From Tetradesmus obliquus (taxonomy: Eukaryota; Chlorophyta; Chlorophyceae; Sphaeropleales; Scenedesmaceae): a stretch of DNA of 64,000 nt. The notes below the pieces were generated by a model. It did no database searches and had not been told where the DNA came from. It saw only the letters and a list, made by a program, of their open reading frames with translations. The DNA lies in the NCBI GenBank assembly GCA_030272155.1, contig CP126193.1, positions 7,874,001-7,938,000 on the forward strand. Direction: 5' to 3'. Positions 7,529 to 44,000 of the stretch are shown here, in pieces; the first letter of the stretch is position 1; every line of letters starts with the position of its first letter. A program made the position numbers and the translations under genes.

Positions 7529-10500
7529 ATGGCTGAGGCAGACGAGGATGAAATCAATCTGGAATCCCTGAAGCTGCTGAAGGAGATCTTTGAGGTGGGG
7601 TGAGCTAGCAGTGCATACGCCTGCAGCCTGCACGCATGCAGCACCTGTAGCACACGATGCTGCACCAACACCAACAGCACCAGCGGCATCGTATACCAGC
7701 ACACTCAGAACCAGCATACAGTGTTCCACACATCAAGTTCACATGCAACATGCAGTAGTGTAGGTGAGCTAACAATGATGGTGCCTGGCCATGGTCCAAG
7801 CCATCAGCACCTGCAGCAGCTTGCACAAGGCTGTGGTGTCAGCAGTCAGCACACAACACCACCACAACCTGTAGACATGGAGGACAACATGCTTCCTGCA
7901 AACACGGCAACTGCGTTGTAGGCAGCGGATGAGGATGGCAGCGGGGAGCTGGACATTGACGAGTTCTGTGCCAAGCTGGGGCCCCACCTGGGCGTCAACC
8001 TGAAGCGGCAGCAGGTGGCGCAGCTGTTCATGAAGATTGATGCGGATGCAGGAGGCACAGTAGATTGGTGCGAAGTAGGACCGCATGCCAGCTAAGTAAT
8101 CACCGCATAACGCTGCCCAGCATGGCCCCATAGCAGCAGCGCCACGGATGCACGTTGGCAGCAGGAGCAGCAGCAGCAGCAGCGCCTGCAGCAGCAACTG
8201 CACATCTTGACTAGGAGATGAGCCGCCAGGATTCACACAAGCAGTGAGCTGCCTTCCTGCTGCTAGTTCTCTTACCTGCTTGTACCGTGTCTTTGCACCT
8301 TGCTGATATCATGTCCCTCACCTGGCCTTCCCTGCAGGGACGAGTTCACCAACTACATGTTTCTGGAGAAGGCCCAGGCGGCTGCAGGAGACAGCGCAGC
8401 AGACAACTGGCGGCTGTTCCCGGCTGACTTCAGGGACAAGAATGAGGCCAGCGCTTACCACCACGAGCAGGTGCTGACTGCAGCTGGGCATGCACTGCAG
8501 CAGCTGCTGCAGCTGCGCAACAGCAACAGAACGCAGCAGCCGCGACTATCAAGCACGTAGTTGCTGTGTATTACGTGCAGCTGCAGCAGCCAGGAGATGA
8601 ACCGTCTAAGATGGTGCCACGACCCACATGTAACTACTGCGCCGCATATGCCTGCAGGTGGACCGGCTGTACTTCTGCGGGGCCATCGACAAATACATCA
8701 GCTGCGGGCGCGACGGCAGCTTCCGGCTGTGGAACGCGGCCGATTTAAAACATGTGAAGACGGTGAACAATGGCAGCAGCTGGATCACGGACTGCCTGTA
8801 CCTGCCGCTGTCGCGCAAGATGGTGTTCACCACCATGGACAGGGCCATCACCTACTATGACATCAACAGGTGGGGATGGATGGGCGTGATCAGCTGGATT
8901 TGTGCCTGGATGTCGGCCTGCTGCCGTGTGCTGTAGCATTGCTTCAAGGTGCAGCTCTGCTGCAGTGCGCGCTGCTTAAAAGCACAGCAGCAATCGGCAA
9001 GCGCCATCACCTGAGACGACACCAAGAGGTGCAGCGGCTGGCAGTGATCTGATAGTGCAGCTGGATGGTGGGTTGCAACGGTTGCAGTGCTGATGGACAG
9101 GGCCATCACCTACTATGACATCAACAGGTGACGCGGCTAGATGGCGTTGCAGTGTCAGCAACAGACAGAAGCTTATCAGCCTAGATGCGTGGCGGCCTGC
9201 TGCCATGTGCTGCAATGTTAGTGACAGGTGCGCCACCGCCGGGTGTAAGCAGCGCAGGAACTGGACAGCAACAACTGCGCTGGACCAGCAGGTCGCAGGT
9301 ACCTCTAGCAGCACAATCCTGGCGCAGCTGCTTAGCGCTGCCTGCTGTCCCACCAGCTGCTGACTGCTGTTTGCATGCACATGCAGGGGCTCCTATGACC
9401 TCACGGGCCGCGTGTACGCCTCCGGCCCCATGGGCGTGCCGCTGAGCCTGCACGTGCTGTCGGGTGATGCCGGGGAGCGCGTGGTGTACGGCGACACCAC
9501 GGGCGCCACGGTGCTGCTGCTGTGCGGCTCGCGGGAGCTGCCCGCGCGCGACCTCATCAGCACAGATAACCACAAGGTGCGGCACAGCTGGTTGTTGTTG
9601 CGCCCTGCTGCTGCAGGGGCGGTGTTTTGTGCTGCTGGCATGTGCTTGCTCGTGGGTGATTGGCGAGTTGCCGGGTCGAGTGTAGGTTGCTGTTCCCTTG
9701 CCAAGCGCCACGGTCACATGCTCAATGCGCTGGTGAAGCCATTCACGTCAGCTCACAGCCACAGTGCTGATGGTACTGCCTGCCCGGCCCACCCCTTGGT
9801 GTGCCACCCACTGCTCCCGCCCCGCCATGCAGGACTACATCTACCTGCACAAGGAGCACAGCGACTGGGTGACGCAGGTGCGCCGGCCTGCGCAACAGCC
9901 CAAGTTTGCCGCAGCATCTCATGCACCGTTGTAGTGTTCTGGGTGTCTGCACTCTTGCATAGATGTTCAGTTGTGTCTGCATGCCAGCACAACGGTTAGG
10001 CTCTACTAGTAACCTCTTCCCCTGTCCCTGCCAGGTGCGCTGGATCCCGGAGGTGGGCCTGGTGAGTGCCAGCCTGGACGCCACCATCAAGACATTCGAC
10101 ATCAACCGGGAACGCATCACGCACACCTGCAGCCACCATGCAAAGGGCGTGCACGCCTTTGTGTGGTGCAAGGCCTACAGCTGCTTCGCGAGCTGCGGGC
10201 TGGAGCGAGACGTGACGGTGTGGCACGTGAGTGGCCGGGATGCTGCTCTGGCGGGGAGGGTGGGCAGGCAGGCAGGCAGCCACCCAGCATGTGGCATGTG
10301 AGTCGGGGCGGCCCGCTGAGCTCTGGCAGGGAGGGCAGGCAAGTGGGCAGGCAGGCAGCCAGCCTTGCAAGCATGTGGCATGCGAGTCCTCGGGCTGCTT
10401 AGGCAAGCAGGGATATCATGAGGGCAGGCAGCCAGCCTTGCGTGCTTTGCAGCTGTAACTGAGCTGCAACGCTGCAATTTTGTGCGGCTGTGTGGGCGTG

Positions 10501-13500
10501 CATGGCATTTGGGCTGCTCAGAATGCTGCTACTGTGGAGCCAAAAAATTAGCGCTGCATGCGTGCTGCTGCTGCTGGTGGTGGTGCTGCAGGGCACCACT
10601 GGGCGCAAGATCGGCGACCTGCGCGGCCACACCAGCAGCGTGTGCAGCATCGCGCTGGACGACAGCTTGAACCACGTGTTCACGCTGAGCATTGACAAGT
10701 CCATCAAGGTGTGGGACCTGCGCAACCACCTCTGCCTGCAGACCATCAACGAGGTGAGGCGGGGGGCGCTGTAAGGTGCTGCGGGGTTGGCGGAGGGGGT
10801 GAAAGGGGGGCGCGCTGGGCGCCAGGGGCTCCGACTGGCAGCATATGCATCCTAGGGGCTATGGGCAACAGACCAGAGCAGAAGGCATGACCACAAGGAG
10901 GTCAACAGCCGTGCATCACACATCCTGGCTTACTGCTTCCTTCTCCTGCTGCTGCTGCTGCTGCAGGACGACTGGGTGCGCCACGACGACAGGCAGCCCA
11001 GCTGCATCATGTACGACAGCAGCAGGCGGCGCCTGGTCACGGCCTTCCACAGGCCGTACGTGTGGCAGCACAAGGTGAGCACAGGACCCACCTGTGCACT
11101 GCACGTACATGCAATCTGCACATTTATGCTGGCTGCATGCTGAGATGGGACCCTGCAACACCGTTGCTTGGGGGTGGGCATGTACATGCAAGTGTCTGGC
11201 AGATGTACAGGGGCGTGCAAGCGTCCGTGCAAAGATAGCAACTGCAGTACTGCTGCGGTTTCTGCGGCATCCTTTGCTGCTGCAGGTGATCACGCAGGAC
11301 CGCACAGGCCACCGCGAGCCGGTGCGCGGCGCGCTGTACAACGCCGTGTTTGGCGTGGTGGTCAGCGTGGACGAGGGAGGCACGGTGTGCGTGTGGAACC
11401 TGCAGGTACGCGCCTGGCTGGCAGCGTGGCAGTCCGCTGCTGCCAGCTCCTTTGGCTGACAACTGACATGGTGCAGCACGCACAGCGTGCGTTGATGTGC
11501 ATGGAGTAGGCGGCATGCTGCTGCTGCATGCTAAGGCTGCAGGTTGTTGGTGCCGCGCCTGTCTGTGCTGCAGGACGGCTGCCGCAGCGGGCGCTTCACT
11601 GGCGGCCACGGCGCCAGCCGCGTGACTGCCATCAGCTTTGACAAGAAGCAGCGGAGGCTGGTGACGGCAGCCAACGATGGCAGCATCAAGATGTGGAACT
11701 TCAACAACGGCAGCATGCTGCGCAGGTGGGCGGCTGGACAATGATCAACCGTACCAGGCTGTGCAAGGCACCACCACTGCCTTAGGCTGTTGTTGCTGCA
11801 ACATAGCTTGCATAGCGTGCTTCAATCTGTGGGTGCTGTCGACGCAGCCGCTGGTGCACATGCAGCTCTGACTGTGCACTGCTTTGACTGTCTGTTGTTG
11901 CAGCTTTGCGCATGATCAGGAGCCGCTGGAGGTCAGCGAGGTGCTGTTTGAGCGCGACGAGAAGCGCGGTAGCGACACGCTCTACGCGGCAGGCTGGAAC
12001 GCCAAGGTGAGGCAGTTCATGCGGCATGCGGGTGGCAGCAGCCCGCTGGAATATTTGTATTTTGTCGTGCAGGTAGCTGTCGGCATTACTCTTCACAGCA
12101 GCGCACACTAGGTGTACTCATGGCACGCATCTTTAGGTGATGCATGTCAGAATTTTGGCGGCATCAGCGGTTGCAATCTTGTTGGCCACAGCTGCAGCGT
12201 AAATTTCTACACTTATACATGCATGTGTGGCTGCCGCGTCAGGTGTTTGTGTGGGAGGATGCTGACGAGGATGTGGTCACCGCCTACAAGACCTACGAGG
12301 GCCACCAGGAGGACATCCAGTGCATGGCAGCGTACCCGCGGCGGCAGCTGCTGGCAACAGGTGGGGCAGGCTGCCGGGGGCTGGCAGCTGCGGCGATGGG
12401 TGGATTCAGGGTCTGCAGTGCCCTGCTATTTTTTGCATTCGAGGGGCCTTGCAGCAGCTGCATGCAGCAGCACAGCCATCCTGCATGCGCTTGGGCAAAG
12501 GCTGCGCCGGCTTGTTTCAGCGTGAGCATGAGGGCGCTAGCCAACAGCTGTGCAAGCACTGCGTGCAGTGCTTCTCCCATCCACCAGCTCATATCAGCCA
12601 GGTGAACCACAACCCTGCAATGTGCGCTGCCACCTCGCCCGCCCCCCACCCCCTCACAGGTGACTAGCAGGGCCGCGTCAACACCTGGACCTCATCAGCT
12701 GTACAGGCATTGTGCGCAACCTCTCTGCCAATCCTCCGGCTTGTGTTTAGTAATGCCCTCCACTATTTTGTGTTCACGCGCTCCATTACCCAATATTCCT
12801 GCAGGCGACTACCAGGGCCGCATCAACATCTGGGGCCTGTTCACGGGCGAGCGCAAGTCCTGGCTGAGCCACAGGGCGGAGCGCTACGAGACGGGCGTGG
12901 AGAAGCTGCTGTGGCTGCCAGCCTTCAGCCCCGCGCAACGCGCAGCAACAGCCAGCGCGGCAGCGGCTCTCACCGCGTCAGCGGCGTCGCTGGCGTCTGC
13001 GTCAGCAGACGCAAGCAGCTTCTTTGTAGGGCTGGGCCAGCAGCAGCAGCAGCAGCAGCAGCAGAAACAGCAGATCAATCAGGGATTGCGCCAACAGCAG
13101 CAGCAGTTGGTTGGGGGTGTAGCGCCTGTTATAGTGCCTAGTACCATGTCGGTAGCTTCAGAATTATCACTAGCAGATGACATAGGCAGCCATGCACAGC
13201 AGCAGCCGCAGCGGCGACAGCAGCAACAGCAGCAACAGTGTCCAAGCATTGCAGTTGATTCAGCAGCAACAGCAGCAGGGGAAGCAGCAGCAGTGGCAGG
13301 GGACAGCAGCAGCTGCACGCCTCGCGCTGCAGGCGCTGCTGCTGCTGCTGAGGGTGAGCTGGATGTGGCTGACGAGGAGCCGGATGTGCTGCTGCTGCTG
13401 TCTGCTGGCGGTGACGGCATGCTGCGTGTGTGGCTGATGAACCACCTGGCACAGGGCCAGATGCTGTGCACACTGCCAGGTGGGTTGGGGGGGGGGGGGG

Positions 13501-15225
13501 CTGGCTGGCTGAAGATGGAGCAACAGACACAGCAGCTATATGAGTTTGGTGCCTGTTGCCGGTGCGCCATGTGCAAGTATACAGGCGCCACTGCTGCAAC
13601 CACCTGTTGTGGCGGACATCTGTGGTTTGCCATGCCGGGCTGCGCTGCGCTGCACTATGACAGTGTGCATGTTGTTGTGTGTGCTGTGCTGCAGGCGCAC
13701 AGGGCCTGCTGGACGTGGTGACTGCTGCGTGTGTTGACGAGCAGGCCAGCTGTGTGGTGCTGGGCGACAGCGCGGGCCACATCCGCGTGTATGACATCAG
13801 CGCAGGCATCGACGCATCCAGCAGCGCAGCAGCAAGCGCTAGCTTCAAGCAGGTGAGCACTGGCCGCCAGGCGGTGTAAGGGGATTTCCCAGCTGGCAGG
13901 ACACATACAACGGTGCAACAACATGTCTGCCTGCATGTGTGGAGTGGTGACTGGCTGCGCACGCGCTGTGTACCAGCAGGATCATTGGCGCAGCTGCAGC
14001 AGCTGATGTGTGTTCCTGCAATGCCTGCCTTGCCCGCCTGCAGCGCGCGCACTGGCAGGCGCATGACGCAGGCGTGTCCAGCGTTGACTACGTGCCTGCG
14101 CGGCCCTTTGCCAACAGCAGCTGCGGCGCCAACGGCAGCAGCATGGTGCAGCCGCTGATCGTCAGCGCGGGCCGCGACAGTAACGTGGCGGTGTGGACGC
14201 TGGACGGCGGCTGCGTGGGGCTGTGCGGGGAGCATGCCTGGGACCTGGACCGGCAGGACACCTGGCAGGACGCGGCGGGGCAGCAGCAGCGGCCGCCGCG
14301 GCCGGAGGCGGAAGGCATGTTCCTCAAGGTGGGTGGGCGGTGGCGACAAGGCTGCAGCGGCTGCACCCCGCTGGGTAGTAAGAAAATGGTTGCGGGTGTT
14401 ACAAATATGTATAAAACCGTTGAGCGATGACTCTGTTTGCCGCAGCTGCGCTGCTTAATGCTGGTGGGTGCATTTTGGGCTTGAGTCACCGGTGCATACC
14501 GCCTCAAGCTCAAGCCTGATGAACGTGCTGCTTGGACTGCTTTGTTGCTGATGCAGCCTAGTGACAGTCAATTGCAGCAGGACGGTGGTGCAACAGCGGC
14601 AGGCAGTCCTCACCGCACCAGCGGCGCAGGTAGCAGTCGCGCTGCTGCAGCCGCAGCACGCAGGAGCAGCCACAACCGCACTGGCTCAGGGCTGGAGCTG
14701 GGCAGAGGTGCTCCTGGGCAGCTGGCAGCAGCAGGCGGCGACCCTGGGGGCCTGTCCATGGCTACTCTGGTGCTGCAGGTGCGGCAGCAGCTCTGGCTCA
14801 ATGATTGGGATCCTGCAGGCTTCCTGCAGCACATTGAGAGTAAGCAAGCAGGCAATATATGCTCAAGCACACTGATCTTGAGGTCATTGCTTCAGCGTGG
14901 ACTTGGTCTTGAGTAATTGGACAAAGTCAAACACGCTGGCACTGCTGGGCTGCTGCTGCGTCTGCTGCTGCAGGGCCGCAAGCAGAAGACGCGGGAGTCC
15001 ATGGTGGCCAGGCCTGAGCAGCCGCACTGCCAGCTCAAGGTGCATGGCCTGGATGATGTGGAGGCCACTGCAGGGGAGATCCTCAAGGCAGCAGCAGACA
15101 AGCGCAAGGCCAAGGCGCGCCACCTCAGCAGCAGCGTCAGCGGTGGCAGCCACATGAGCAGCTGGAGCGGGCTCAGCCACGGCAGCAGGCCTGGTGGCTT
15201 CAACTGGCGGCAGCAGCACAGCTGA
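7529..15225 (+). CDS. EF-hand and WD40-repeat protein (WDR49-like)
   Basis: Eighteen exons: 7529-7594, 7922-8067, 8338-8470, 8658-8869, 9387-9576, 9833-9877, 10035-10226, 10592-10753, 10967-11074, 11286-11405, 11574-11725, 11904-12006, 12243-12360, 12805-13479, 13695-13852, 14044-14328, 14557-14778 and 14974-15225, about 1112 residues. The N-terminus has two EF-hands, DEDGSGELDIDEF and IDADAGGTVDWDEF, the second split by an intron. WD repeats fill the rest, with blades such as DKYISCGRDGSFRLWN, GLVSASLDATIKTFD, FTLSIDKSIKVWDLR, LVTAANDGSIKMWNF, GGDGMLRVW and SAGRDSNVAVWTLD. A low-complexity Gln/Ala insert sits in exon 14. The order EF-hands then a double propeller is that of animal WDR49/WDR64 proteins, which are linked to cilia. 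A Ca2+-responsive scaffold role is inference. A donor at 14840 would also fit the sequence but shifts the frame, so 14778 is preferred. Several introns hold copies of exon edges. Confidence 0.85.
8835..9130 (+). repeat. Exact 38-bp copy of an exon 3' end inside its own intron
   Basis: The last 35 bases of exon 4 plus the GTG of its donor (8835-8872) recur unchanged at 9093-9130. Beyond this core the two units share weaker similarity (GGCCTGCTGCC near 8913 and 9192), so the duplication was about 258 bp long and has partly decayed. Confidence 0.9.
10221..10387 (+). repeat. Three copies of an exon-7 donor junction
   Basis: The real exon end and donor TGGCACGTGAGT (10221-10232) recurs as TGGCATGTGAGT (10292-10303) and TGGCATGCGAGT (10376-10387). 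GGCAGG-rich linkers separate the copies, 71 and 84 bases apart. Confidence 0.8.
12660..12688 (+). repeat. Decayed copy of the start of WD40 exon 14
   Basis: These 29 bases follow a CACAG acceptor-like site and match 12805-12833 at all but a few positions. The copy has a TAG as its third codon in the exon phase, so using this acceptor would end the protein at once. Confidence 0.8.
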
Positions 15226-15269
15226 CCGTGGTTCAATGTGCTGCAACCTGCCGGGTCCCTCCTTCAGCC

Positions 15270-15274
15270 TGTAA
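15270..15274 (+). promoter_or_regulatory. TGTAA polyadenylation box of the WD40 gene
   Basis: TGTAA lies 45 bases after the TGA at 15223-15225, a typical spacing for a chlorophyte poly(A) signal with a short 3' UTR. Confidence 0.6.
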
Positions 15275-19367: not shown

Positions 19368-19906
19368 ACTGTGTGGTTAGACTCTTGGGGGCCCAGTGGG
19401 GCGACATTTTGCGAAGTGTTTGATGCATGTACTCAGCAGAAGTGTTTTTTTTTCGGATAAAGGGTTGCAGAGCTTGAGGTGCTGCAGGAATTGCTTTGGT
19501 TGTCAGCATGTGATGACCTGGCATGCGCGCCCATGGGTACACTGGACGCAAGGCAACAGCTGCCAGCCTGATCAACATGGGCAGGTGCATGTGCTGCTGG
19601 GGCTTATTATGCAGAGAAATAGACGGACAGGTGTTCATGCACCCTGGGTTGTTTAATCCCTGAAGCAAGGGGCAGGGGGCCCAAATATCTTCCAGTGTAT
19701 CTGGCCAATTGCGTCAGTGGTAGGGTTTTGTAACGGGCCGCTGCCTGCCGGTGCCTTTGAATAATGTTTTTGGAGCTCAGTGTGTTGAACTGCGCAATTG
19801 AACATGTGTACACTACTCCTACTGCTGGCCGGACGCGAAAGTCACAACACGACAGAACGGGCAGCAGGATACAAGGCCAATCCCGCATTGCCACAGCAGG
19901 AGCTGG
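19368..19906. other. Intergenic region after the lipase gene
   Basis: This is 3' UTR and promoter space. A TGTAA box at 19729-19733 is the best poly(A) candidate for the lipase. No coding exon was seen. Confidence 0.5.
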
Positions 19907-22631: not shown

Positions 22632-25350
22632 TCATCCCACGTGCTGGCGCTTGGTCACGCGCGCCACGAAGCCCGACTTGATGGCCTGCACCGTCCTGCT
22701 GGCGCCGCACTGCTGGCAGCGCAGGTGCATGAGGCGTGTGGCGCTGTCCTTGTCCAGCAGCGTGTCCACGCTCTTGCAGCCGGGGCACAGCACGTACCTG
22801 GTGCGACAACAAAGGCAAGGCAGGCAGGTGAGTGTGGCGGGATGATGGGGAGCATGTGATGGGAGGAGCATATGATTGGTGTCAGCAGAGCGCACAGCCA
22901 GACCAGGTTGTACACTGAACGGCAACTGTTGTGAAGTGACCAGCGTCAGACATACATAGTGGCGGACAAATGCTGTTGATGCCGCACAGGAGCAACAGCT
23001 TTTGCATGCAGCTGCTGCCTGTTAATGCCCCAATGTTATCGCAGCCCTGCATGCCGCCCGCCTGCCTCAACATAGCACAGCCTAGCCAATCGGTACAATC
23101 AAGTCGCATATTGCATCTGCCAATCACATATGCCTCGCCCGTGTAGAAATATTATGCAATCTCTCTGTCGACAGCGCTCACTCGTTCACGTAGCGGCGCA
23201 GCACCGTCTCGAAGGATTTGGGCAGGAAGCGGCCCTTGCACACCAGGCGCTGCTGGCCGTCCAGGCTGCCAGATGTGCCCAGCTCGGCCAGCAGGTAGGC
23301 GGACACGTGCTCGTTGTTGCGGTTCATGGCCTTGCACAGGTCCATGAAGTTGGTGAAGACCGTCTTCTTGGTGCCTTCGCGCGCCACCTGAAAGAGGGGT
23401 GGGTGGGTGGGAGGGGGTGGGGCAACAGTGAGTTGATAAGGGGGTGAGGCCACGGCAACAGGATTGAGGCACAGCAACGGCAGCGCACGCACGCCAGTTG
23501 AAGGCTGCCGAAGGAGTAATCGCGCAGTGCGCCCAGGTTGCATGCGTGGCGTGGTATCAGAGGAGCCGTGAGCACATGCATCAGGCCGAGTGCCTGTTCT
23601 GTTCTGAAACAGCAGAGCAACACACTGTCCCTGCTGCTGCTGCTGCCACCGGCACGCCTGGCTGCTGCTGCTGCTGCTGCTGCTGGTGGTGGTACCAGTG
23701 CTGCTGCTGGTGCTGGTATGCATGCTGCTGCCGGGCCCCGCACCTGGGGCGGCTTGAGCACTGTGCGGCGGCGCTCTCCGGTGAGCTCCGGGTTGCGCTC
23801 ACGCAGGATGCCAAACACGCGGTCTGTTGTAGGAACGCGTGTGCAGCAGCATGAAGAGACACAGGCAGCAGGCAGCGCAGCATATGGTGAGGAGGGGCAA
23901 CTCGAGAACGTACGTCTGCAAGCAGGCAGACAAATGACATCCTGCCACCCCGCTGCATCCGCACAGCTGCATCCACACACAACGGTCATACATGCATGCG
24001 CGCTTCAGGCCACCTGTCACGGCATGTGTCGCCCGCATGCCGTCTCCCGGTGGACAAGCTTCTGCGGCAGGTCACAGCAGGCTATGCCACGCAGGCAGCT
24101 GATCATGCCGGAGCTGAGCCGCATTGGCATCGGCAGCCGCAGCAGCCGCAGCAACAGCAGCAGCAGCAGCACCAGCTCACCCAGCAGCTCGTCGTAGGTG
24201 TACTCGCGGTCGCTGTTGCTCCACGCAAACTTGCCCGCGCCCTCGCCGCGCTCGGCCGCCTCTGCCTCAGCCTCTGGGTCGGCCTCGGCCTCCAGCCCAA
24301 ACTCATCAGCACGCGTCTGCGTAACACAGCAAACAAAGCACCAGGCCAGGTGTTTAGTGGCAAGGTGCAAGTAGGACAAGCAGCGAACAGGGCCCTGGCC
24401 AACAGGATGGCCTTAGCCGCAGCCTCCAAATTGCCCTCCAGTCTAAACTCGCCAGCATGCGCCTGCAAGAAACGGGTGTTAGAAGGGGACAGCAGTTCCA
24501 AGGTGTGTTGGTAGCTGCCACTGCTGCACTCTCCGTTCGCCACCGCCCCAGTTTGGCGTTGGCTGCACACAACTGCATACCGCTGCCGACACGACACTGT
24601 TGCACCATCAATACCAGCAGCCTGCTTTGGCTTGAGCGTCGCGCGGACAGGAGCCACGCATGCTCGCGTTTGCAAATGCGCAATCATTTGCTCGTCGTGT
24701 GCTGTCCATGTGCTGTCTAGTGCTGCTGCGCAGCTGCACTGGCTGCTGCAGATGCACAAGATGCAGCCACTGCTCTCTGGCTCACCTTCTTCTTCTTTTT
24801 CTTCTTTTTCAGCGACAGGTCTACTAGCAGGTCCTCGTCCTCTGCTGGCTGCTCTCCCGCTGCTGCTGCTGCTGCTGCTGCTTCGCCATCCTCTGCCTGC
24901 ATAGACAGAGCAACACCAGGCGATCAATACTACTTAAGTGTTACCGGCACAGCTGCAGGAGCAATGCATGCACCGCCCAAGATGAGCACATGCTGATGCT
25001 CATGCATTGCTCTTAATCAGAGTCCTTCGTCAGCTTTGTCCCCAGCAGCAGCTGACATGCAGTAAACAGGCAAACACGTGCATGGCTGCTGAAGTGTAAC
25101 CCTGGCTCTGCTTGTGCTCACCGCTGGCTCAGCTGCTGCATCCTTTTTCTTCTTTTTCTTCTTCTTGCCTAGGTCTAGTGTAAGCTCGCCATCGTCGACT
25201 GCATGATCAGGCAGGACAACAGGGTGAGCACTGCTGCTGTGTCTGTGCAGCTGCACACTTATCGCGATCCCTCGCCCAGCGGCACCAACCCTGACCTGCT
25301 AGTTCGTCTAGTTTCTCCTGCACCTCATTAACCTGCTCCTCGTCAGTCAT
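22632..25350 (-). CDS. eIF2B2-type beta subunit (EIF2S2 orthologue): Translation initiation factor eIF2 subunit beta
   Basis: Beta subunit of eIF2, which carries Met-tRNAi to the 40S ribosome as a GTP complex. Seven exons, 25350-25296, 25198-25122, 24896-24786, 24316-24181, 23823-23744, 23387-23182 and 22797-22632, all close in phase and give about 276 residues, close to plant eIF2-beta. MTDEEQVNEVQEKLDELA starts the protein. Exons 2 and 3 each encode one lysine box (eight Lys after LDLG and after VDLSL), the sites that in other species bind eIF5 and eIF2B. The core domain follows (YTYDELLGRVFGILRE region, then FTNFMDLCKAMNRN). The C-terminal zinc ribbon is CPGCKS ... CQQCGAS (C-x2-C twice). 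The intron before exon 4 contains a decayed copy of the start of exon 4. Confidence 0.93.
24421..24465 (-). repeat. Decayed copy of the eIF2-beta exon 4 start with its acceptor
   Basis: On minus, GCAG followed by a GCATGCTGGCGAGTTT-type stretch resembles the true exon 4 start (GTGCTGATGAGTTT after GCAG at 24316). The frame stays open, but no good donor follows, so it reads as a decayed exon-edge duplicate, not an alternative exon. Confidence 0.65.
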
Positions 25351-30955: not shown

Positions 30956-31659
30956 TTGTGAGCTGCGGGATGATGCAAGATGTGGCTTGAACACGGTGAA
31001 CAGATAGAGCTGTGGGAATGAAGCAATCATCCAAAAAATTTGCCATAAAAGTGGCAGATATTCAAAGTGACGAGCGCACTGCCCAGACACATAGCAAGCT
31101 GAAGCTGTAGAACGCTACCAGCATGCACACAGCAGCATCAAACACATAGCAACGCAGCCACCACCGCACGCTTAGCGCAGTACACACATAAACACACACA
31201 GCGCCGCGCAACAACAAGAACAAAAGCCAACCCCGCCCTGAGCAGGCCACGCACGCAGTGCTGCGCTCACTCACCTGCTGCGCTGCGCCACCCGCCAGGC
31301 CCAGCCCCTCCAGGCCCTTGCCCGGCCCCCGCAGACAGGCACGCTGTCTGAAAACACACCAAGCTAAGGTTGTTGAACGCTACCAGCATGCACACAGTAG
31401 CATAAAACACACAGCAACACACAGTCATCCCCGCGCGCACAGCGCAGCACACACACGCAGCGCCGCCCCCACCTGCTGCGCTGCGCCACCCGCCAGCCCG
31501 AGCCCCTCCAGGCCCTTGCCCGCCCCCTCAGCGCCAGCAGCGCCCTCAGCGGCAGCCTCAGCACACGCCACCAGCAGGTACGAGCCCGCCAGCGCTGCCA
31601 GCTGCTGCAGGCCGGGCAGCGCAGCCCAGGCGGCAGACTCAGACTTGGGCAGCTCCTGC

Positions 31660-31749: not shown

Positions 31750-32954
31750 CAGAGTGCAGCGTGTTGATGTGCAACAAAGATGTGTGCGAAACTGAGACTA
31801 CCACCTTGCATCCACACTACATGGTTTGAATGCTGCTTTGTCAGCACCCAGGCTACCATGTTGAGCTTGCAGAACTGCATTGCTGCACAACCACAGGTAT
31901 ATGCACGCAGCTGCGCCAGCCCTGTGTGGTGTGCCCCACCCACCACGCCAACACTCCTGCGCAAGTCACCCAGCCACTGCATCTCCACGCGCCGCCTCAC
32001 CTCTGTGGCCTCCTGCGCCGCCGCCGCACGCTCCCCCGCCCGCCGGAACAGCCCAGCCGCCTCCGCGTACCGCCCACCCCCCGCAGCCGCCGCCGCCAGC
32101 GCCACGTGCCCCTGGTAGTATGCGCGCCACGCCGCGTAGCCGCCGCCGCGCGCTGCTGCTGCTGCCGCCAGCGCCTCGCCCTGGCGGCCGCCCAGGTGTG
32201 ATGCGTGCTCCTCCAGGTCTGCTGCCAGCTGCGCCAGCGTGGTGGTCAGCCGCACCAGGTCCTCGGGCTTGGCGGGGCTGCAGCAAAAGGCCAAAAAAGA
32301 GAGAAGCGACAGACAGCAGGGGTACAGAATGGGTTTAGAGCTTTGGTGAGGAGCACCAGGTCCTCGGGCTTGGCGGGGCTGCAGCAAAAGGCCAAAAAAG
32401 AGAGAAGCGACAGACAGCAGGGGTACAGAATGGGTTTAGAGCTTTGGTGAGGAGCACCAGGTCCTCGGGCTTGGCGGGGCTGCAGCAAATGGCGAAAAAA
32501 TGCAGGGGCAGGGTTTTGGTTATTGATACGTGGGGTTTAGCACAGGCCTAGGGTGGTGAGGCAAACCAGGTCCTCCAGCTTGGCAGGGCTGCAGACGTGC
32601 AAGCAGGGGAGAGGGCGTGGGGACACGCATCCACGGAGATGTTGGCAGAGGCTGCAGCCACACACACGCACCTGTCTGTGCTCCACTGCGATTGTGAAAC
32701 GCTGAGCAGCCTAACACGATATTATGCTTTAACTGTACAGCTGCGCCTGCGCCTCACCGCTCCTTGCCCTTGCCGCCGCCTGCTGCCTTGCCTGCCGCCT
32801 GCCGCTGCAGGCCAGCTGCAAAGCGTGCCGCTGCATCAGCCGCCGCCACCTCGCCCCGCGCCAGTGAGCCCTCCAGGATGCGCCCCGACAGCGCCTTCTC
32901 CAGCGCAACCAGATCCTCCAGGTCACCCGCGTCTGTAGGGAGAGGTGTCAGGGC

Positions 32955-33010
<56 letters not shown>

Positions 33011-36000
33011 CAACATGGAGTGGGGACAGTGTGTTTACCGTTGTAGGAGGAACCACGCATGCCGCACTGAAAACTGCTGGGGTGCAGGTGTTGTGGTGAT
33101 AATCCGAGAGCAGGTGTTGTGTGCATATTCTCCTGTGACACCAGGTCCTCCAGGTCGCCCGCGTCTGCAGGGTAAAGAATGGGGTACCGCAGCAGCAGGG
33201 CCAAGAGAGTGTGTGTTTGGTGGCTGCATTCAATCGCGGCGGCGATTAAAAGGTGCCGAGCGCATGCGGTGACATAACAATCACCGTTGGCTAAACAACA
33301 CAGAGCAGCGTTGTTCCGACGGCGCACAGATGTGTGCTGTGCGGATGAGCAGCCAGCGCCTGCAGTGAAAGACCCACCAACGCTTGCCGCACACTCACCG
33401 GCCTCTGCGCCTGCCTTGCCTGCTGCCCCGCTGCCGCCGCCCGTCTGCGCGGCCTTGATGGCGTTGCGCGTGGCTGCGCGCGCCTCCTGGTACCAGTTGG
33501 TGAGCTTGTCGTGCTGCGGCAGCGCCTGCTCAGCGCTGGCCGGGCCGTCTGCGCGCGCAGCAGCGGCAGCAACAGCAGGGGGGGGATGCTCAGGCATCGC
33601 ATGCAACAGGCAGTACCGGGGCCGCGCACAGCCTTTGGCAGCATGCAACACGCGTGTGTGCATGTATTGGAAAATGTGTTGGGCTGACTTGATCACAAGT
33701 AGTGCAGGAAGGCAACCCTGCAGGCATATAACCAGGCAGGCAGATGAACCAACAGCCAGCCAGCCAGCCAGCCACGCACCCGTGTCCATGGCTGCCTCAA
33801 GTGTCGCCGCCAGCTCCGCTGCGTTGTGCAGCGGCACGCGCACGCGCTCCTGGCTGACAGGTGCTTTGATGCCGCGCCACTCAAAGCTGCTGGTGGCGGC
33901 TGCCTGCGCGGTCTGCGCTTCAGCGGCAAGGCTGGCCAGCTTGCTCTGCACGCCGCAACACACATGTGCACAGGCGGCAGCAGTTTGGCGTGACGCGGCC
34001 TCCGTTTCCCAGCCCTCTCAGCAGTGCTGTGCTAGTGAGCTATACCTTCCAGTCCACCCACATAGGATGCAAGAGGTTCCCACCTAATGGGACAAAACAG
34101 ACAGCCGCAAGCAGCCGCCACACATTGACACCCTACACAGCCCCAACAACCCCTAAACAGCCCCACAGACCTGCAGCAGGCTGCCGCCGCCCTCCCTGCC
34201 CTCCTCAGCCAGCAGAGGTGCAACCACACCCAATGCCCCAGCGACCACGCCATCAGCAGCCGTACCCCCCCTCAGCCGCACCTGCAGCAGGCTGCTGTCG
34301 CCACGCTCGACACCCAGCAACCACACCCAATTCAGCAGCACCTGCCATCACACACCGCGACAATAAACAGCCACAACCCCTTCAGCTGTCTAACCGCACC
34401 TGCAGCAGGCTGCCGCCGCCCTCGCCTGCCTCCTCAGCCAGTGCCAGCAGCCCCGCAGGGTCCCGCATGAACAGCCCCGGCCCAGTCAGCAATGTGCTAG
34501 AAGGCTGTACTATGCGTGCACCACCAAATTATGCAAGAGGCTCCCAACCCACGGGGCAGAGGACGGACAGGCAGCGGCAAGCAACCGTCGCACACCGCCA
34601 ACCACAATGCTAAACAGCCGATTCAGCCGCACACACCTGCAGCAGGCTGCCGCCGCCCTCGCCTCCCTCCTCAGCCAGCGCCAGCAGCCCCGCAGGGTCC
34701 ACCGCTTCACCCCCGGTGCGGCTGATCTGGTAGTTGCAGTAGCGCAGCGCTGGAGCTAGCTCCTCGGCCATAGCTCCGCACAGCGCCTGGGACTCGGGGT
34801 CACCCACACGCGCCAGCTCAGTGAACAGCTTCCTGCGTGGCGGGCAGGAGTGGCGGCGGGAAGCAGGCAAGGGTAAGAAGACAGCTTGTTGCACTGCTTG
34901 TCGCACTGCAAGGATGGCGGCACTGCCGCTAGTGCACCTGCGCTGGCATGCCGCATAATGCAGCGCTGCCTTGGCTGCGGTCACCGCGACATGGCGATGA
35001 GCAAGCTGACGACAGCAGCAGCTGCTCCACATCCCTGCAACTTGCCAGCCTGTCTGCTGCCGCTGCTGCTGCTAGTAGTACGTCGGCCACACGAAACCGG
35101 CCATCTATCTCTGCTGCTGCACCGCCGCTCACTTGGCGCGTGTGTAGCAGGCCAGCGCGCGCTGCCAGTCGCTCTCCGTCTCCATGAGCACGTTGCCGCT
35201 CATCCAGGCGGCGTACGCGTCAGCCTCCACCGCGCTGCGCGTGTCGCACACCGTGCCAGCGATGCGGCTCAGCTCGCCGGCCCAGAAGGACGCCTTGCGC
35301 AGCCGCCGCAGCGCGGTGTGGCGCTTCTTGGCTGCGGCCGCGCCGTCCTGCTGGCTCTCCTGCTTCAGCAGCATGGCGTGCGCCCAGGCGCGCTCCGCGC
35401 ATACCAGCAGGATCTGCAGGTGCCTGCAGGCGGCAGCAGCAGGGGCAGGGGCAGCAGCAGCGACAGGGGCACGCGCAGAGGCAGTGCTGGGTGAGAAGCT
35501 AGCGTGCAGCTGATACACAGGCAGCACCCATGGTTGCGGGACGACTGCTGCTGTTGCTGGTGGGATGCCGGCAGCAGCTGCAGTGCTGCACCATCTGCAG
35601 CACTGGCGGTTGTACCAGCTGCTTAATATGCTGACAGCCGCAGGTGCTGTGGCGCAGCAACCAACTGATGCCGGCCTGCTGGGTGTGTCGCTGCTGCATA
35701 CACACCATGCCCTGCCAGGCAGCTGCCGAGGGTGGCTGACTGCTGTCACGCCTCCTGCAGCAGCTGCTGCTGCCGCTCTCCGCCCTTGATCGTAGTCACT
35801 TCACATTGCGCCAACACGCCATGACAATATACCTCACAGACATGCACGTGGTGACCCTCCCACAGAAACAGACCACATGCTCGTAGCACGCGCTGTTGCT
35901 CAGCAAGCCGCGTTTGCTGCCTGTCACCACGCTGCTCGGCCCACCTTGCATCTGACACCTGTGGCACGTCCAGCTTCTTCTTGGTGTAGCGGCCCTTGCC

Positions 36001-36454: not shown

Positions 36455-37178
36455 GACTGCTGCTGCTGCTAGAACATTCAACAGGTTCTGGTGTAGCTAG
36501 CAGTGCTGTGGAACGACTGTGCCTACCAACCGAGCACGCTCTCGCTTGTCAGGCAATGCTAAATTACACTTTCAACTCTTCAGCTGTCCAATGCAGCATT
36601 TTGTAACAAAGAAAGAGCATGCAGCAGCAGTGGTTATGACTGTCAGTTGTACTGGTCACACCCAACCTCCCACTGTAGGTCTCATACCCGGTGGGCACCG
36701 CCCCTGTCCAAGTGAAGCAGACGAATTGGCCAGTTTCAGTGCTGGTTCATGGGAATAGCAGTCCTTACGCTCAAAGGTTCCACCACTAATATGTGCACAC
36801 TGTTCTGGTACCAGGGCTGGCCCACATTGAAGCACGTGGCACCACCCGTGGGCCCGGCCGAAACTAGACATCATGATGCTGCCCTAGATTCAAAACTGGC
36901 CAGCTGACGGAATTAATCAAGCGAGCAAAGACGATCAGGGGCAGTCACAAGGCAATGATACGATGAACACAGTGTATGGCGATGCACTGTGAAGTTCCCA
37001 GCCCACACACAACTGCCAGTGGTATAATGAGTCCAGCAGGCAGTACGTGTCGGCATGCCCGGCTGCCTGATGCAGCAGCCACCAAAACACAATAGCATCA
37101 AAGCATGTATTGACTGCACTATCCATATTCAAGATGGACTTGATGTCACAGCAAGTAAGCAAACACATACAGCAGGCC
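36455..37178. other. Intergenic region upstream of SRP68
   Basis: It holds the SRP68 promoter and the 3' UTR of the next minus gene. No coding exon was seen. A minus-strand TGTAA (TTACA at 36564-36568) is a weak poly(A) candidate. Confidence 0.5.
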
Positions 37179-39137
37179 CTATACCACAAACGCCCTGCCT
37201 GACTGCCGTTTCACGGGCGCTGCTGCAGCTCCTGCTTGCTTGCTGCTGCCTGCGCGTGATGGCTGCTGTGCCGCCTTGGTCTTTGCAGAAGCGCCTGCTG
37301 GCCTGCCACCAAGCGCTGCAGGGGCTAGTGGTGCAATGCTCAAGGTGCAGAAGTCTAGGTCGGGCCGCTGCTCCCCGTCCTCCTGCTCCTCTGTGTGCAG
37401 GGGCGCCGCGCTGCACGTGATCCCGCTCAGCAGCAGCTGCTGCCGCTCTGCGCTGCTCTCTTGTTGCCTGGATGAAGCGCAGAACAGTGAGCAGCAATGT
37501 GGTGCCAAATCATCAGGGGCTCGTGCTGCAACCCAGATGCCTTCCCAAAATCAGAACGCATCTCTAAGCACTTGCAGCGACAAGTGGTGTGTCTCAGGAG
37601 CCTACCAGGCCGAGCTTGGTCTAGGCAATGATGCAGCAGCACGGTGTACCTCGTGTTGCGGATACCATGATGTGGTGCGGAGACAAATGTGCTAAGTGCG
37701 TCAAGTGCTTGCCACCATGCAGGCAGCCCAGCCCACCTGCGTGTCTCCAGCATCAGCTCCTTGAAGGTGGCAAAGTCAGACATGCTCAGCAGCAGGTCAA
37801 AAACCTGGCGGCAGCAGAGACACACAAACAGCTTGCAGGACAGCAGCTGTGCACTACGCAACTGATTATTTGACAGACACGTCTGGTCATGAGGCTGGCA
37901 GCCTGCAGCCCAGTGCGCAATTGCAGTGAGACATCCTCAATCATTGCTGGCACCTTGACTGCAGCGGTCTCACCTCCGCGCCCAGCTGCTCCTGCCGCTC
38001 TCCCAGCATTGCTGCAAACTCATCCATGCTCAGGCCAGGCACTGCCGCCTGCAGTGCACGCTGGATGGATCCCTCCAGCAGCTCACAGTAGGCCTCAAAC
38101 AGCTGCGTGTAGCACAGCTTGTTCTCATCGCCATCCTGCAGCAGTTGATGCCCACAGCCGTTTGGTACGGATCGGCCATTTGTACACTCTGATGCTCAAC
38201 AGTTGGTCGTTATCACAGCACTTGTACAGGGTGATGAATTGCTTTTTAAAAATCACATTGCTCTTTTAAAATCACATTGCTTTTTTATAATCACATTGCT
38301 TTTTTGAAATCACATTCAACGTTTTGAAGCTGCGTAAAACTGTCATTTCTCATAGTGTAGGCATGCTGCTCCTACTGCTGTTGAAGCAGTTGCTGGCACG
38401 CCTGAGGGCCGCACCTCAAACTCGTGGCAGTGCTGCCTGCAGAAGCTGCTGTGGGTCTCCTCAAAGCCCGTGTCCAGCAGCATGCCTGCTTCAGCGGCAC
38501 CCAGCAGCAGCAGCACAACACGGATTGATGGAATGCTGGACCGCAAGTCATAACAGCAAGGTTGGGGACCCTCGTGCTGCAAACCGCGTTTTCCGTCACC
38601 AAGCTTGGGGCATCTGAGTTGGCGCTATGAAGTAGATGTGCTGAAAACCACAACCACAGCACTCTGGAACCAGCGTAGCAGGCTTTTACATGCTGCACAC
38701 CTTGCAGTGCTGCGATGATGCGGTCCCACAGATTTGTGCTGTCAGAGTTGTTGCTGCCATCATCAGCTGCAAACACCTCTTCAGCGTCATCCTGTGGTCA
38801 GCACCAGAACGGAAGTCAGTAATGCCTACCAGCAGTTTCACATAGCATACTGCCTAGTGCGGTCCACATCTGCGCAGCATGTATGCCTCACAGCCGCAGA
38901 GCAGAGTTGTCTGCAGCTGTTGCTGCGTGTGACATCAGCATGCATGGGCACGCACCATCTCAAAGTCATCTTCGTAGTCGTCTATCTGCGTGTCATCGAC
39001 TTCATCTGCAAAGAAACATCGTTCAATGGGGTGCAGAGGAGTTCTTGATTGATTGAGTCTGGATGACTGCAGCAACCTTGCTACTGCACACTCTCGTTCA
39101 AGGCGATAGCAGACTTGCCTGCTGCCATACACGACAT
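37179..39137 (-). CDS. ARL2-binding protein (BART)-like protein
   Basis: Likely effector of the small GTPases Arl2/Arl3. Seven exons, 39137-39092, 39005-38956, 38791-38701, 38485-38415, 38135-37974, 37804-37737 and 37467-37179, close in phase and give about 258 residues. The BART domain runs from LWDRIIAALQG through FEETHSSFCRQHCHEFE, DGDENKLCYTQLFEAYCELLE, MDEFAAMLGERQEQLGAE and VFDLLLSMSDFATFKELML, a close match in order and spacing to ARL2BP (CFAP36 shares the fold). An acidic stretch (DDTQIDDYEDDFEM) precedes it. The tail after residue 170 is longer than in animal ARL2BP and Ala/Lys-rich. The first exon is the least certain part; it is supported only by an ATG, a GTGTGC donor and correct phase. 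Confidence 0.82.
38236..38318. repeat. AT-rich tandem repeat of about 20 bp
   Basis: Four imperfect units of AATCACATTGCTTTTTTA type lie in the intron between exons 4 and 5 of the BART-like gene. The composition contrasts sharply with the GC-rich surroundings. Confidence 0.85.
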
Positions 39138-40475
39138 GTTCGTTTTGCCCATTAGCTGTGCAAGCGAGTTCCAGGGAAACGGTTCTCTTTGCAGGTTCGA
39201 CTGTTCAGCGATGGCAAGTGTTTCAATGTGTGGTGAAAGCGGAGCAGGTCAAATCTCACGGCAAAGAGCAAGTTCAAAAATGAAAATCTGTGTCAGACCT
39301 ATTGAGTGCGACGATGGTCGCCCAGTTGTTTGACAAAACCCTGGTGCGAGGTGTTGACCAGTCAAAGTCACGGTGCACCGTGTGGAGGGTAATGGCTCAC
39401 GCAGCACACATCTTGAAAATTGGAATAAAGGACACAAGAAAGGATATTGTGACATCGCATGCCAGCAGGCATGTTGCTAGGCGTGCGCACCAGGGAACGA
39501 AGCAAATCAAACTTGCACTGCTCTGCAGAGCCTGTAGACCAGCTGCAGCGTTGCAGACTGCATTGCATGCTGTATACTCGACATGCGCCTCACAGTAGAT
39601 GTACAGGAGGGGTTGATCACCGGAGAACATGGTAACATGCAGTTATATCCCGAATGATGCCAATTTTGCTGCCCACCAGTGAGCATGAAACACATTGAGA
39701 GGGCCCGCACATGCCATGATATCATGGCATCGATGGTACACTTCTGGCTCAGTGCCATACGGCTGCCACAGCAGTTTTAGCAGCTTACATATGTGTGTCG
39801 TGAGCGGGATTGCTCCGCTGTCGCGCGCGACCTAGCTTTCGAAAGGTCTCGCCCACCTCGTAATTATGTCACTCTGTGAGGACTGGGATTTGAGCCAGGC
39901 CAGCGCCTGAAATCAACACCAAACAGTGTGTGCACTAGCAGCATGTGCTTTGGATGTGCGATTGCGTACCAGCGGGCTCTCACACCTCGTCCTTTTTTGG
40001 GCTCAAGCTGCTCGAGGCACTGCTTCTGACGATCAAGCAATTAACATCATACACTTTCAACAATTCATGAACGATGGGCTGCTGAGTGGCAACTCATTGC
40101 TGTGCAGACTGCTCGAAGGTCGGTGTCTGCCGATTGCGTGGCGCCATGCCGTATTTTATTCGTCCGACGTCGTGATATAGGGTCTGATGGCTTATTAGCG
40201 GAGGATCTCCCGCTTAGCAGGAGCATACCCGGACAACACAAGGTTCGTGCAGGCTGTGCAGGTCTATGCACATCAGAGAGCAGCCCTTGGCAACACCAAC
40301 AGCATTCTATGGCTGCACCACACATGATTTGGTCGCGCTGATCGGCGCAGGTTATCATTCCGCCTTTGGGCTCACCAAGAACACTGGGTGGGCTCCACCT
40401 TCGTTGCTTGTCACTGCATCGTGCTGCAGGCACCCATCCAGCTGCTGGGCAGGCGCCGCCCAGGTGTTGGAAAGC
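39138..40475. other. Divergent intergenic region, BART-like and AP2 genes
   Basis: About 1.3 kb. No convincing exon was found. An upstream untranslated or short coding exon of the AP2 gene could hide here; an acceptor-like GTGCTGCAG ends at 40430. Confidence 0.45.
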
Positions 40476-40548
40476 ATGCCCCCGAGTAGAGGTGCCAAGG
40501 CAGCAGACCAGGGGCAGCAGGCTGCAGATGGCAGCGCGGAGCAGGCTG

Positions 40549-40593
<45 letters not shown>

Positions 40594-41010
40594 CAGCCAA
40601 TGCCACCGCAAAGGCAGGCCTGCTGACCAGCAAGTTCACTGGCGTGTGCTGGAACAAGAAGAACAAGCGCTGGCAGGCATCCATCAACAGCGGTGGCAAG
40701 TGCGTGCAAACCACCGAGGCTGTTGACAGCGCCACTGCTGCGCGTGCATGCTAGCCAGCATGCACGCGCTGGCTGTGCCGAGCACCAATTGCAGAGGCCG
40801 GCTAGTCTCTCCCTGTACAAGTGTTGCAGCCACACGCTCTCAATGCACAATACGCACGTGGCACTTACCAGAACTGCAGTCAGCGGTACTGCTGGCGTGA
40901 CCGGTCACACTTTACAAAAGCCTTGTAGACTCCTGCAAGCTTATCGTGCCGCTGACTGTACACTCCAACTGGATGTGCTCTCTCTGCCATGCCCCCCACT
41001 GCCACCGCCA

Positions 41011-41042
<32 letters not shown>

Positions 41043-44000
41043 TACCTGTACCTGGGCAGCTTCTTGCACGAGAATGACGCCGCCAAGATGTTTGACCTGG
41101 CGGCCATCAAGCTGCGCGGGCCCGCCACCAAGCTCAACTTCCCCTACGAGGAGTACCTGGACGAGACGGGGCAGGTGCGGCACAGGGTTTTTAGGGATTG
41201 GGTTAAGGGATTGACGATGTGTTCAGGGTTGTAAGTGGCGGCATGAGGACCCCGAGTGGTGCAGCAGCTGTGTGTTTAGGGAAACAGTGCTGGCCGGAGT
41301 GCATGGCCACGAATTGGTTGGGAGCACTGGCAGGTGTGCAGCACGGCAGCCGGCATGTCGCGCTTGTGGTGCAGCAGCAGCGGCAGGTGTGGTGCAGCAG
41401 TAGTGACAGGAATGCATGTGCCAGTGCAATAGCACTGGCGGATGTGTTGTTGCAGTCGTGGCAGGCGCACCAGACGTTTCCAGCAGTCCTGCAAGGTGTT
41501 CGACGCGACGTGCCCGCCTGCCTGCCTGCCTGCCTGCTGGCGCAACTGCCGCCCACCTCACCTGCTGCCCCTCAGCTGGTGGGGAATGAGGCGCTGAACA
41601 GTAGACGCTGTACAGGAGCAGTGCCGCAAGTTGTGACATTATGTGCCCGCCTGCCTGCTTTCTCTTCTTGCGCTGCATTGCCTGTGCTGCGTTGATTTGC
41701 AGCTGGTGGAGAACGAGACGCTGAACAGCACCATCGCAGTGCACGAGCAGCTGGTGCTCACCCAAAAGATGGCCACAGCACAAGCGCTGGCGCTGGCAGG
41801 CATGACCAAGAAGGCACGCGTGGGCAGCGGCGGCGCGGGCACAGTTGCCAAGCGCATGACTAAGGCCAACCCCAACTGCCAAGGCATCATCACAGCAGCA
41901 ACAGCAGCAGCGGTTAGTGGCGCTGGGGGTGCGGCTGGGGGTGCGGCGGGCGGCGCGCATGCTGCTGCTGCTGCTGCTGCTGCCGGCACGGGCGCCATGC
42001 TTGATATGGCCCCACAGCCAATGCACCCCTCCACTGCTAAGCACATCGGGCCAGGGTTTGACATTGGGCTGCTGTCGCAGGCTGCAGCCACAGCAGCGAG
42101 TGATGCAGTGATGATGGCGCGGCAGCAGGCGCAGCAGGCCGCCGCAAGCCAGCAGGCGCAGCGGCAGGGCAGCAGCAGCAGCATGGGCTATCATGCTGGA
42201 CTCGGGGGCATGGGGCAGATGGGTGACCTAGGAACACAGGGCATGCGCGCGCACCAGCAGCAGCAGCAGCAGCAGCTGCATCTGCACAATGCTGGCGATG
42301 CTGGGAGCAACTGGGGTGCAGCGCCAGGTGGCTTGCTGAAGCAGCAGCAGCAGCAGCAGCAGCAGCAGGGTGTGGGGCTGCAGCAGGCTGGCGGCTACGC
42401 AGCAGCAGCAGCAGGGCCGCAGGGTGGCGGCATGCCGCTGCAGATGCAGGGGCTTGCCCCTGCTGGGGGCGCTGCTGGCAATGGACTGTGCGGCGCGCCT
42501 GAGCAGCAGCAGGAGGCTGTGCGGGTAATGCAGCTGGCAGCGCTGCAAGGATACCTGCAGGTGGGGCGGCTGGCACAGGGCAGGGGCATGCTGTGGTGTG
42601 ATTACGCTCGCAAATAAACTGCTCGCAATGTGCAGTAATCAGCGGGGTGCAGCCGTAGGAATGGCTTTTTTTACATGCATGTTGTGCTTACATGAGGGCA
42701 GGATAGAAGGCGGCACAGAAGTTCACAATGACTGCAGCTGTTTGTTGCTGTGTGTGCTGCACCGCTTGCTGCTGTGCTGATGTTTTGCTCCTGCTGCCAT
42801 GCCTACCTTCACAGGATGTGCAGGCCTGCAGCCATGCGCCTGGGCCTGGCAGGCAGCAGCAGCAGCAGCAGCAGGGCATGGGCTGGCAGCAACCCGGGAG
42901 TGCCATGGCCATGCCGCAGCACCCTCAGCAGCAGCAGCAGCAGCAGTTGCAGAGCGACTGGCCGTACGTGGCAGAGCCGCACCAGCAGGGGGCCTTTGCA
43001 GTCGACCACGCAGCAACAGCAGCTGCAGCATCCAGCCATATCGCACACCGCCTCGCAGCAGGCGCACCCCCTGCCACTGCACCCGCTGGCATCGCATTAC
43101 AAGCAGCGAGCGCGGCCGCTGACGGCGGTGACGCGCGCGCAGCGGCTGCTGCTGCTGCGCTGGTTGCTGCGCCGCTGTCGGTGGTGCGGATGTCGACGCT
43201 GACGAGGCACCTGCCGCGTGGTGCTGAGCTGGAGCTGCTGCTCATGGGGGAGGCAGGCCTGGTGGGGGTGCTGTTCAGGCTGGGGGCCCAGCAGCAGCAT
43301 CAGCAGCAGCAAGTGGTGAGTGGGGATGAGGGGATGAGGGGAGGGCGCTGTGCATGGAGGTAGGAGGTGTTGACATTGAAACTACAGTTGATTGCATGCA
43401 AGCAGGCTAGTAGTGCAATCTAGCAGGTGTAAACACGTTAATTTGGGCGCTGTGTTGTGCTTATTGCGTGGGAGTGCTGTGCTTCATGGCAGGTGACATG
43501 CTCATGCACAGCACCCAGTGGCGCTGTGTGACCTGTGCAAGCTGGGCATTCAGGTGCCCAGGACTGCATTCTATCGGCGCTGTGTTGTGCTAGCTGAGGT
43601 GTGTTCGCTCGTGCGCGTGCCATTGCATGCTGCAGGTCTGGGGCACTGCGCTGTGGGACGGCGCGCTGTGGCACAACGGAGGCAGCTTTGCAAGCGAGGC
43701 AGCAGGCATGCAGGCTTGCGAGTTTGCTGTGAAGTTTGCAAAGCACCTGGCTCACAAACCCCGAGGACAGCAGCAACAACAACAGCAGCAGCAGCAGCAG
43801 GGCCTGCAGCAGCAGCAGCAGCATGCTGGTGCTGCGCACGGCTCGGCAGCTGCAGTGACAGCTGCAGTGGCGGCTGCAGCTGCGCTGTCAAGGCATGCTG
43901 AAGCCATGGCTGCCCATACAGGCGGCACCTTCCAGCAGCAGCAGCAGCAACAGCAGCAGCTGCAGCAGCAGCAGCAGGACCTGCAGCGGCAGCAGCAGCA

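Follow-up and report, generated by a model that had tools for sequence, protein, structure and literature searches.

Why should introns of a green alga carry extra, partial copies of the exons that adjoin them? The question arises from a stretch of 64,000 nucleotides of the Tetradesmus obliquus genome (GenBank assembly GCA_030272155.1, contig CP126193.1, positions 7,874,001 to 7,938,000, forward strand), which we call the window. An earlier note, made from its letters alone, had described an exon end with its donor, or an acceptor with its exon start, duplicated into the intron at nine or more places in four genes (WD40, eIF2-beta, SRP68 and AP2), and had suggested a genome-wide habit. Having followed this up in the window and in a random sample of the genome, we favor the reading, at a probability of roughly 0.6, that head-to-tail duplication recurs genome-wide at the edges of coding exons and lengthens introns, the inner edge copies decaying as debris. 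The case is built on the copies themselves and on their orientation, spacing, limited depth into the exon, decay, and excess over a simulation with random placement.

Exon edges are copied into their own introns

The sample comprised the window and 25 random 10-kb stretches, 314 kb in total from a genome of 104.66 Mb in 17 contigs; the random draw covered 16 contigs, with C8 and the far ends of the other contigs lying outside it. The genome gives 52 chlorophyll-binding matches, as befits a photosynthetic eukaryote. Genes were modeled with a self-trained hidden-Markov finder, for which exons in the window served as seed; it predicted 335 introns with a median of 279 bp and a consensus of CAG/GTGAG at donors and CTGCAG/G at acceptors (the slash marks the splice site). 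Two genes served as checks: the SRP68 model matches Pfam PF16969 at 1.1e-98, and residues 37-273 of a 275-residue spliced fragment of aminomethyltransferase (AMT, in stretch L013) align to 1wsr, the human enzyme. At times the gene finder labels intronic copies as exons (HPPD in stretch L024, and SRP68), so that our counts of intron copies are probably low.

When the outermost 40 bases of each exon were compared with the adjoining intron at a score of at least 22, a direct copy turned up at 25/292 donor and at 33/299 acceptor edges; these copies occupy 48 of the 335 introns. Introns of matched length from other loci gave 0.08%. The rarity of matches at other loci shows that the copies themselves are not dispersed. 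No reverse-complement copy was seen at this score (0/292 donor and 0/299 acceptor edges, 0/591 in all), and at the looser score of at least 18 the reverse complements (3/292 and 1/299) were close to the other-locus controls (0.73% and 0.43%). Templated insertion by polymerase theta makes local copies in both orientations, a pattern that the counts at a score of at least 22 do not show. The copies are also limited in depth: at a score of at least 22, exon positions 41-80 from the edge gave copies at 11/238 and 10/248, and positions 81-120 at 0/199 and 1/209, and a finer profile falls from 10.6% at 0-30 nt to 0.5% at 90-120 nt, the level of its control. The comparison that the earlier note had proposed, of edges with exon interiors and with shuffled exon-intron pairs, thus came out positive in this sample.

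A permutation test was applied to each of 621 exon edges, 168 in the window and 453 outside it. Across the whole sample 95/621 edges (~15%) reached p<=0.01, where 6.2 were expected; outside the window the count was 86/453, which bears out the suggested genome-wide habit in this sample. Introns with copies are longer, as had also been proposed, with a median length of 460 for the 48 introns with copies and 270 for the 220 free of local repeats, the remaining 67/335 introns falling in neither class. Longer introns give more room for copies, but the permutation controls are length-matched. An expression proxy, base composition at third codon positions (GC3) against copies per intron, was uninformative (rho 0.22, p=0.15, 46 genes).

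Copies in the window

Nine of the 168 window edges were significant at p<=0.005, all in the WD40, eIF2-beta, SRP68 and AP2 genes; two of the nine rest on predicted SRP68 exons that are probably copies themselves. The sources and copies are as follows.

8835..8869, plus strand: WD40 gene, donor-side exon end, source of copies (three-copy family)
8994..9031, plus strand: WD40 gene, decayed intronic copy of exon end 8835-8869 and its donor, 71%
9093..9130, plus strand: WD40 gene, exact intronic copy of exon end 8835-8869 and its GTG donor, 38/38 (permutation segment 9093-9127, 35/35)
10290..10334, plus strand: WD40 gene, decayed exon-end copy with donor (TGTGGCAC/GTGAGT), score 21, p=0.001
12662..12688, plus strand: WD40 gene, exon-start copy (source exon 12805-13479) containing an in-frame TAG, 27 nt, 89%, p=0.001
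24410..24461, minus strand: eIF2-beta gene, decayed exon-start copy (source exon 24181-24316), 52 nt, 69%, p=0.001
31272..31329, minus strand: SRP68 gene, copy of exon end 31470-31527 and its donor, 95%, labeled an exon by the gene finder
32243..32500, minus strand: SRP68 gene, 101-bp tandem array of ~2.5 copies, 98%, holding an acceptor and exon start
33128..33198, minus strand: SRP68 gene, exon-start copy with acceptor (source exon 32758-32932), 75%, 71 nt (permutation segment 33128-33164)
34168..34463, minus strand: SRP68 gene, copies of exon end 34634-34700 and its donor, starting at 34168, 34276 and 34397
41576..41621, plus strand: AP2 gene (the earlier note's name), decayed exon-start copy (source exon 41703-42560), 77%, p=0.001

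As the earlier note had it, ages range from exact, at 9093, to decayed with in-frame stops. The flanks of the exact WD40 copy are only ~62% identical; beside the SRP68 copy at 31272-31329, the intron flanks 31069-31156 and 31334-31421 are 78% alike. At 10290-10334 the gene finder had placed the exon end slightly too far downstream. Within the SRP68 array at 32243-32500 the copy 32445-32479 is significant by permutation, and an older copy lies at 32552-32594. Two overlapping copies at 34294-34350 are significant as well, with source exons that are doubtful, and the copy at 31272-31329 and some of those in 34168-34463 are labeled exons and so fall outside the intron-copy test. Pfam supports three of the four gene names, through WD40 repeats, an eIF2B/IF5 domain and SRP68; the name AP2 found no such support, the single exon searched against Pfam giving no match.

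Several other repeats were noted in the window. At 34171-34504, in SRP68, in-frame intronic copies were taken for exons by the gene finder. Within the intron 8471-8657, at ~8577-8637, 29-60 bases are matched, at 87-97%, at six further genomic sites; this short dispersed repeat is unrelated to the exon-edge copies. Predicted intergenic DNA at 3157-3323 holds four exact copies of a 42-bp unit, and CAG/CTG runs are very frequent throughout (1-64000).

The copies are partial and decayed

Among the 58 copies detected at the fixed threshold the copied exon part measures 26-126 nt, the lower bound being fixed by the test itself, and exceeds 100 nt in 3/58. Less than 0.75 of the exon is present in 55/58, and 40 of the 43 indels are not multiples of three; neither figure fits mutually exclusive or duplicated functional exons, which are complete with both splice sites and keep the frame. 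Were the copy's splice site used in place of the outer one, 38/58 would meet a stop, and in 15/58 the added length is divisible by three. The splice dinucleotide is retained in 52/58 copies (GT in 21/25 on the donor side, AG in 31/33 on the acceptor side), in agreement with the earlier view that decoy splice sites are seeded. Given the frame-shifting indels, the stops and the non-triplet extra length, the copies in their present state resemble non-coding debris whose decoy splice sites are still intact.

AMT shows how such copies sit in a gene. One of its introns holds both donor and acceptor copies and two others hold acceptor copies, and the spliced product aligns to 1wsr without a gap at all three; the copies are therefore extra, inside one intron. 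In HPPD, where the gene finder labeled an intronic copy an exon, residues 4-183 and 278-374 of the predicted translation match an HPPD structure, in which they meet almost end to end, and the intervening 94 residues hold repeated blocks.

Spacing and arrays

Of the 58 copies, 39 lie at 81-160 bp from their source, 7 at 161-220, 11 at 221-280 and 1 further away, with a main peak at 100-145 bp and a second at 220-280 bp. Exact 12-mer pairs, counted after removal of low-complexity words, peak at 101-140 and 221-280 bp with fewer between, and short spacings below 60 bp are present too.

Tandem Repeats Finder (TRF), filtered for periods of at least 25 and non-simple units, left 30 arrays. The 11 with a period of at least 85 comprise nine spanning exon and intron (periods 100-144, plus one of 231), one exonic, one intergenic and none confined to introns; among the 19 of shorter period, 10 are exonic, 5 intronic (periods 26-56 bp), 2 intergenic and 2 mixed. 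The two long arrays with the most alike units both straddle edges: L027 1-289 (97%), at the very start of its stretch, where the gene model is cut, and window 32252-32500 (98%). A subset of loci thus has multi-copy head-to-tail arrays with higher-order structure, as minisatellites do. Besides L027 and the window array at 32243-32500, these are L009, where an exon start has three graded copies upstream, L017 (a 100-bp array at 2697-2966, 87%), and the HPPD intron, whose compound arrays repeat the exon end with two alternating flank types. The HPPD intron also contains an exact 45-bp minisatellite of ~5 copies (L024 2173-2401), a very recent expansion. At L025 1037-9494 a repeat pair recurs six times every 1,689 bases, forming a tandem array of a larger unit.

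Coding edges are over-represented

Among duplication events with a spacing of 81-160 bp and 18 or more matched bases, 42 were exon-intron and 14 exon-exon, while the intron-only and intergenic ones numbered 6 each. Exon-intron events lie close to three of the six intron-only ones, some of the intergenic ones are harmonics of short minisatellites or adjoin a stop-codon copy, and 12 events of any spacing fit no class (3 of these with at least 18 matched bases). For comparison, random 125-bp duplications were simulated with uniform placement on the real gene structures, decay, simple function-keeping rules and the same detector; the decay rates and event-acceptance rules are assumptions. The simulated ratio of intron-only to exon-intron events was 1.19, 1.24 and 1.03 for three age ranges, and 1.24, 0.76, 0.65 and 0.46 when the decay rate of intron-derived DNA was set to 1, 1.5, 2 and 3 times that of exon-derived DNA; doubled intron decay with exponential ages gave 0.65. 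The observed ratio is 0.14 (6:42), and simple neutral tandem duplication with uniform placement was rejected as insufficient. From the size of this gap, together with the TRF result, a real preference for edges is likely but not certain.

The idea that a process favors junctions therefore gains support as far as the preference goes (42:6 events and 9:0 arrays), and finds none where it would confine the effect to splice junctions. At a score of at least 18, coding ends without a splice site are also copied into the flanking DNA (3/37 stop-codon ends, 1/31 start-codon ends), and at L021 2087-2374 a predicted coding end and its stop codon are repeated twice just downstream with no splice site involved. 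The target is thus better termed a coding edge than a splice junction, and the effect is probably not only about splicing. Weak selection against junction duplication, offered earlier as an alternative cause, does not by itself predict the shortage of intron-only duplications.

Proposed mechanism and alternatives

We propose that units of gene DNA, mostly of ~100-145 bp, would be duplicated head to tail, over and over and across the genome, each taking in ~25-100 bases of coding exon and about as much of the neighboring intron. With the outer splice site still in use, the protein would stay unchanged and the intron would become one unit longer, as protein homology suggests for AMT, the one gene in which this was checked; the inner copy of the exon edge and splice site would then decay as debris, and some loci would grow multi-copy arrays. 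Coding-edge duplications are strongly over-represented relative to intron-only ones of equal size. More tentatively, at somewhat less than even odds, a process aimed at edges, through transcription, chromatin, splicing or recombination, may repeatedly add ~120-bp units; intron length in this lineage would then come in large part from it, and it would keep supplying intact decoys that the cell must ignore.

Several observations weigh against the head-to-tail duplication proposed. The window is poorer in copies than the rest of the sample (9/168 versus 86/453 edges), and copies are unevenly spread among loci (chi2 55.5, 22 d.f.). Divergence is biased toward third codon positions beyond neutral expectation, with mismatches at 109/1147 (9.5%), 101/1138 (8.9%) and 249/1137 (21.9%) of first, second and third positions in the 58 copies, a 2.4-fold bias overall. 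It is 3.2-fold in copies with similar flanks, 4.2-fold if these are also ungapped (5.7, 4.7 and 21.5% at positions 1-3), and 1.9-fold with dissimilar flanks. The intron flanks beside the copies are alike in 21/55 cases at p<=0.02 and 32/55 at p<=0.1 (3/58 flanks were too short), which leaves 34/55 without significant similarity at p<=0.02; a neutral tandem-duplication simulation predicts similarity in 92% (p<=0.02) and 98% (p<=0.1), the first figure dropping to 50% with threefold decay of intron-derived DNA. Third-position bias and dissimilar flanks together imply that the copies are not wholly neutral or that their history is more complex: either the copies change at a lower rate than the DNA around them, or the coding divergence predates the duplication (for example between divergent homologues), or processes are mixed. 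Gene conversion from exon to copy, considered as a source of high edge identity, would by argument lower the third-position bias and was kept as a possible extra only; a base-composition cause of the third-position excess was looked for and is not evident.

Could the edges merely look special? If tandem duplication struck at random, with exon-internal events purged and intron-only ones decaying twice as fast and going unnoticed, the survivors would be those at edges. The exon depth of the copies does resemble that in the simulation (simulated median 57-62 nt), coding ends without splice sites are copied too, and intron-only repeats exist, 3.2-8.3% of intron 30-mers being matched elsewhere in their own intron (a figure that includes parts of edge events). 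However, the ratios simulated without a preference (1.03-1.24, or 0.46-1.24 with unequal decay) stay well above the 6:42 observed, and the long-period arrays (none intron-only, nine spanning exon and intron) do not fit the absence of a preference either; we consider this explanation unlikely. That the copies are functional, as alternative exon ends, poison exons or regulatory decoys under selection, would agree with the third-position bias and the retained splice dinucleotides; it is improbable in view of the frame-shifting indels, the partial exons, the stops and the few extra lengths divisible by three.

Unequal exchange or failed repair between highly divergent homologues, in which exons pair, introns fail to and the second edge comes from the other haplotype, would account at once for coding-like divergence, unrelated flanks and edge preference, and by simple arithmetic a two-stage divergence fits the pooled codon-position rates. 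The graded arrays with similar flanks (L017, L027 and HPPD in L024) would nevertheless require ordinary tandem duplication as well, and we hold this exchange to be still less probable. An assembly artefact, with divergent haplotypes joined at exon edges by the assembler or polisher, is the least probable account: edge specificity and unrelated flanks might come from a collapsed bubble, which would hardly produce copies of graded age, frameshifts, arrays with 3-4 units or one typical spacing at loci drawn at random.

Relation to known systems

In Chlamydomonas and related algae, introns are unusually long although the genomes are compact; the comparative genomics paper on them treats the advantage of such length as unexplained and leaves the mechanism open (PMC8226300). 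Recurrent edge-straddling duplication is a concrete, countable candidate answer. The copies also provide natural experiments on splice-site choice, with near-identical competing sites 100-250 bases apart. For annotation they are a warning: in our gene finder copies became false exons (HPPD, SRP68), other pipelines may do likewise, and repeated blocks in predicted proteins of this genome deserve distrust.

Minisatellites have regular spacing with a second peak, multi-copy arrays and compound units, and the edge copies share all of these; here, unlike in minisatellites, each unit includes a coding edge that selection keeps in place, and the intron-only arrays have the shorter periods given above. 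Fill-in at staggered breaks gives duplications with little or no microhomology at the unit ends. This repair route, through Pol alpha-primase/CST, yields short tandem duplications (PMC8355091) that are likewise head to tail, whereas the abstract makes no mention of a preference for exon edges. Introners, or transposon-borne introns, also alter introns genome-wide, but as dispersed copies of one element (PMC9860276), whereas each copy here derives from its own adjoining exon. In a single 2-kb genome query, the intron with the exact copy at 9093 had one match (74%), which covers its final part and extends into the next exon.

Within genes, tandem duplication is a known source of new introns (PMC4974935). 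Of the features of the Rogers model, head-to-tail duplication within the gene is seen here, in the direct orientation of all copies at a score of at least 22 and the whole-unit arrays of a subset; a new intron between exon copies is not seen in AMT, one gene, where the copies lie within one intron. Internal gene duplication is common too, and sometimes includes introns (Gao and Lynch 2009, as cited in PMC4974935), but as cited there the work concerns segments that contain entire introns rather than an enrichment of partial exon edges. A >10 kb duplication in Solea dmrt1 (PMC7605655) was set aside as a parallel. Among the matches listed from the open-access literature, by title and abstract opening, no description of partial exon edges as genome-wide intron content was found. 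Close to the pattern here is the potato RdRp case (PMC4974935), which is head to tail within a gene and crosses an intron-exon boundary as the acceptor-side copies do; there one event produced a new intron, whereas here the copy remains within an intron that was already present and lengthens it, and the pattern recurs at ~15% of the sampled edges.

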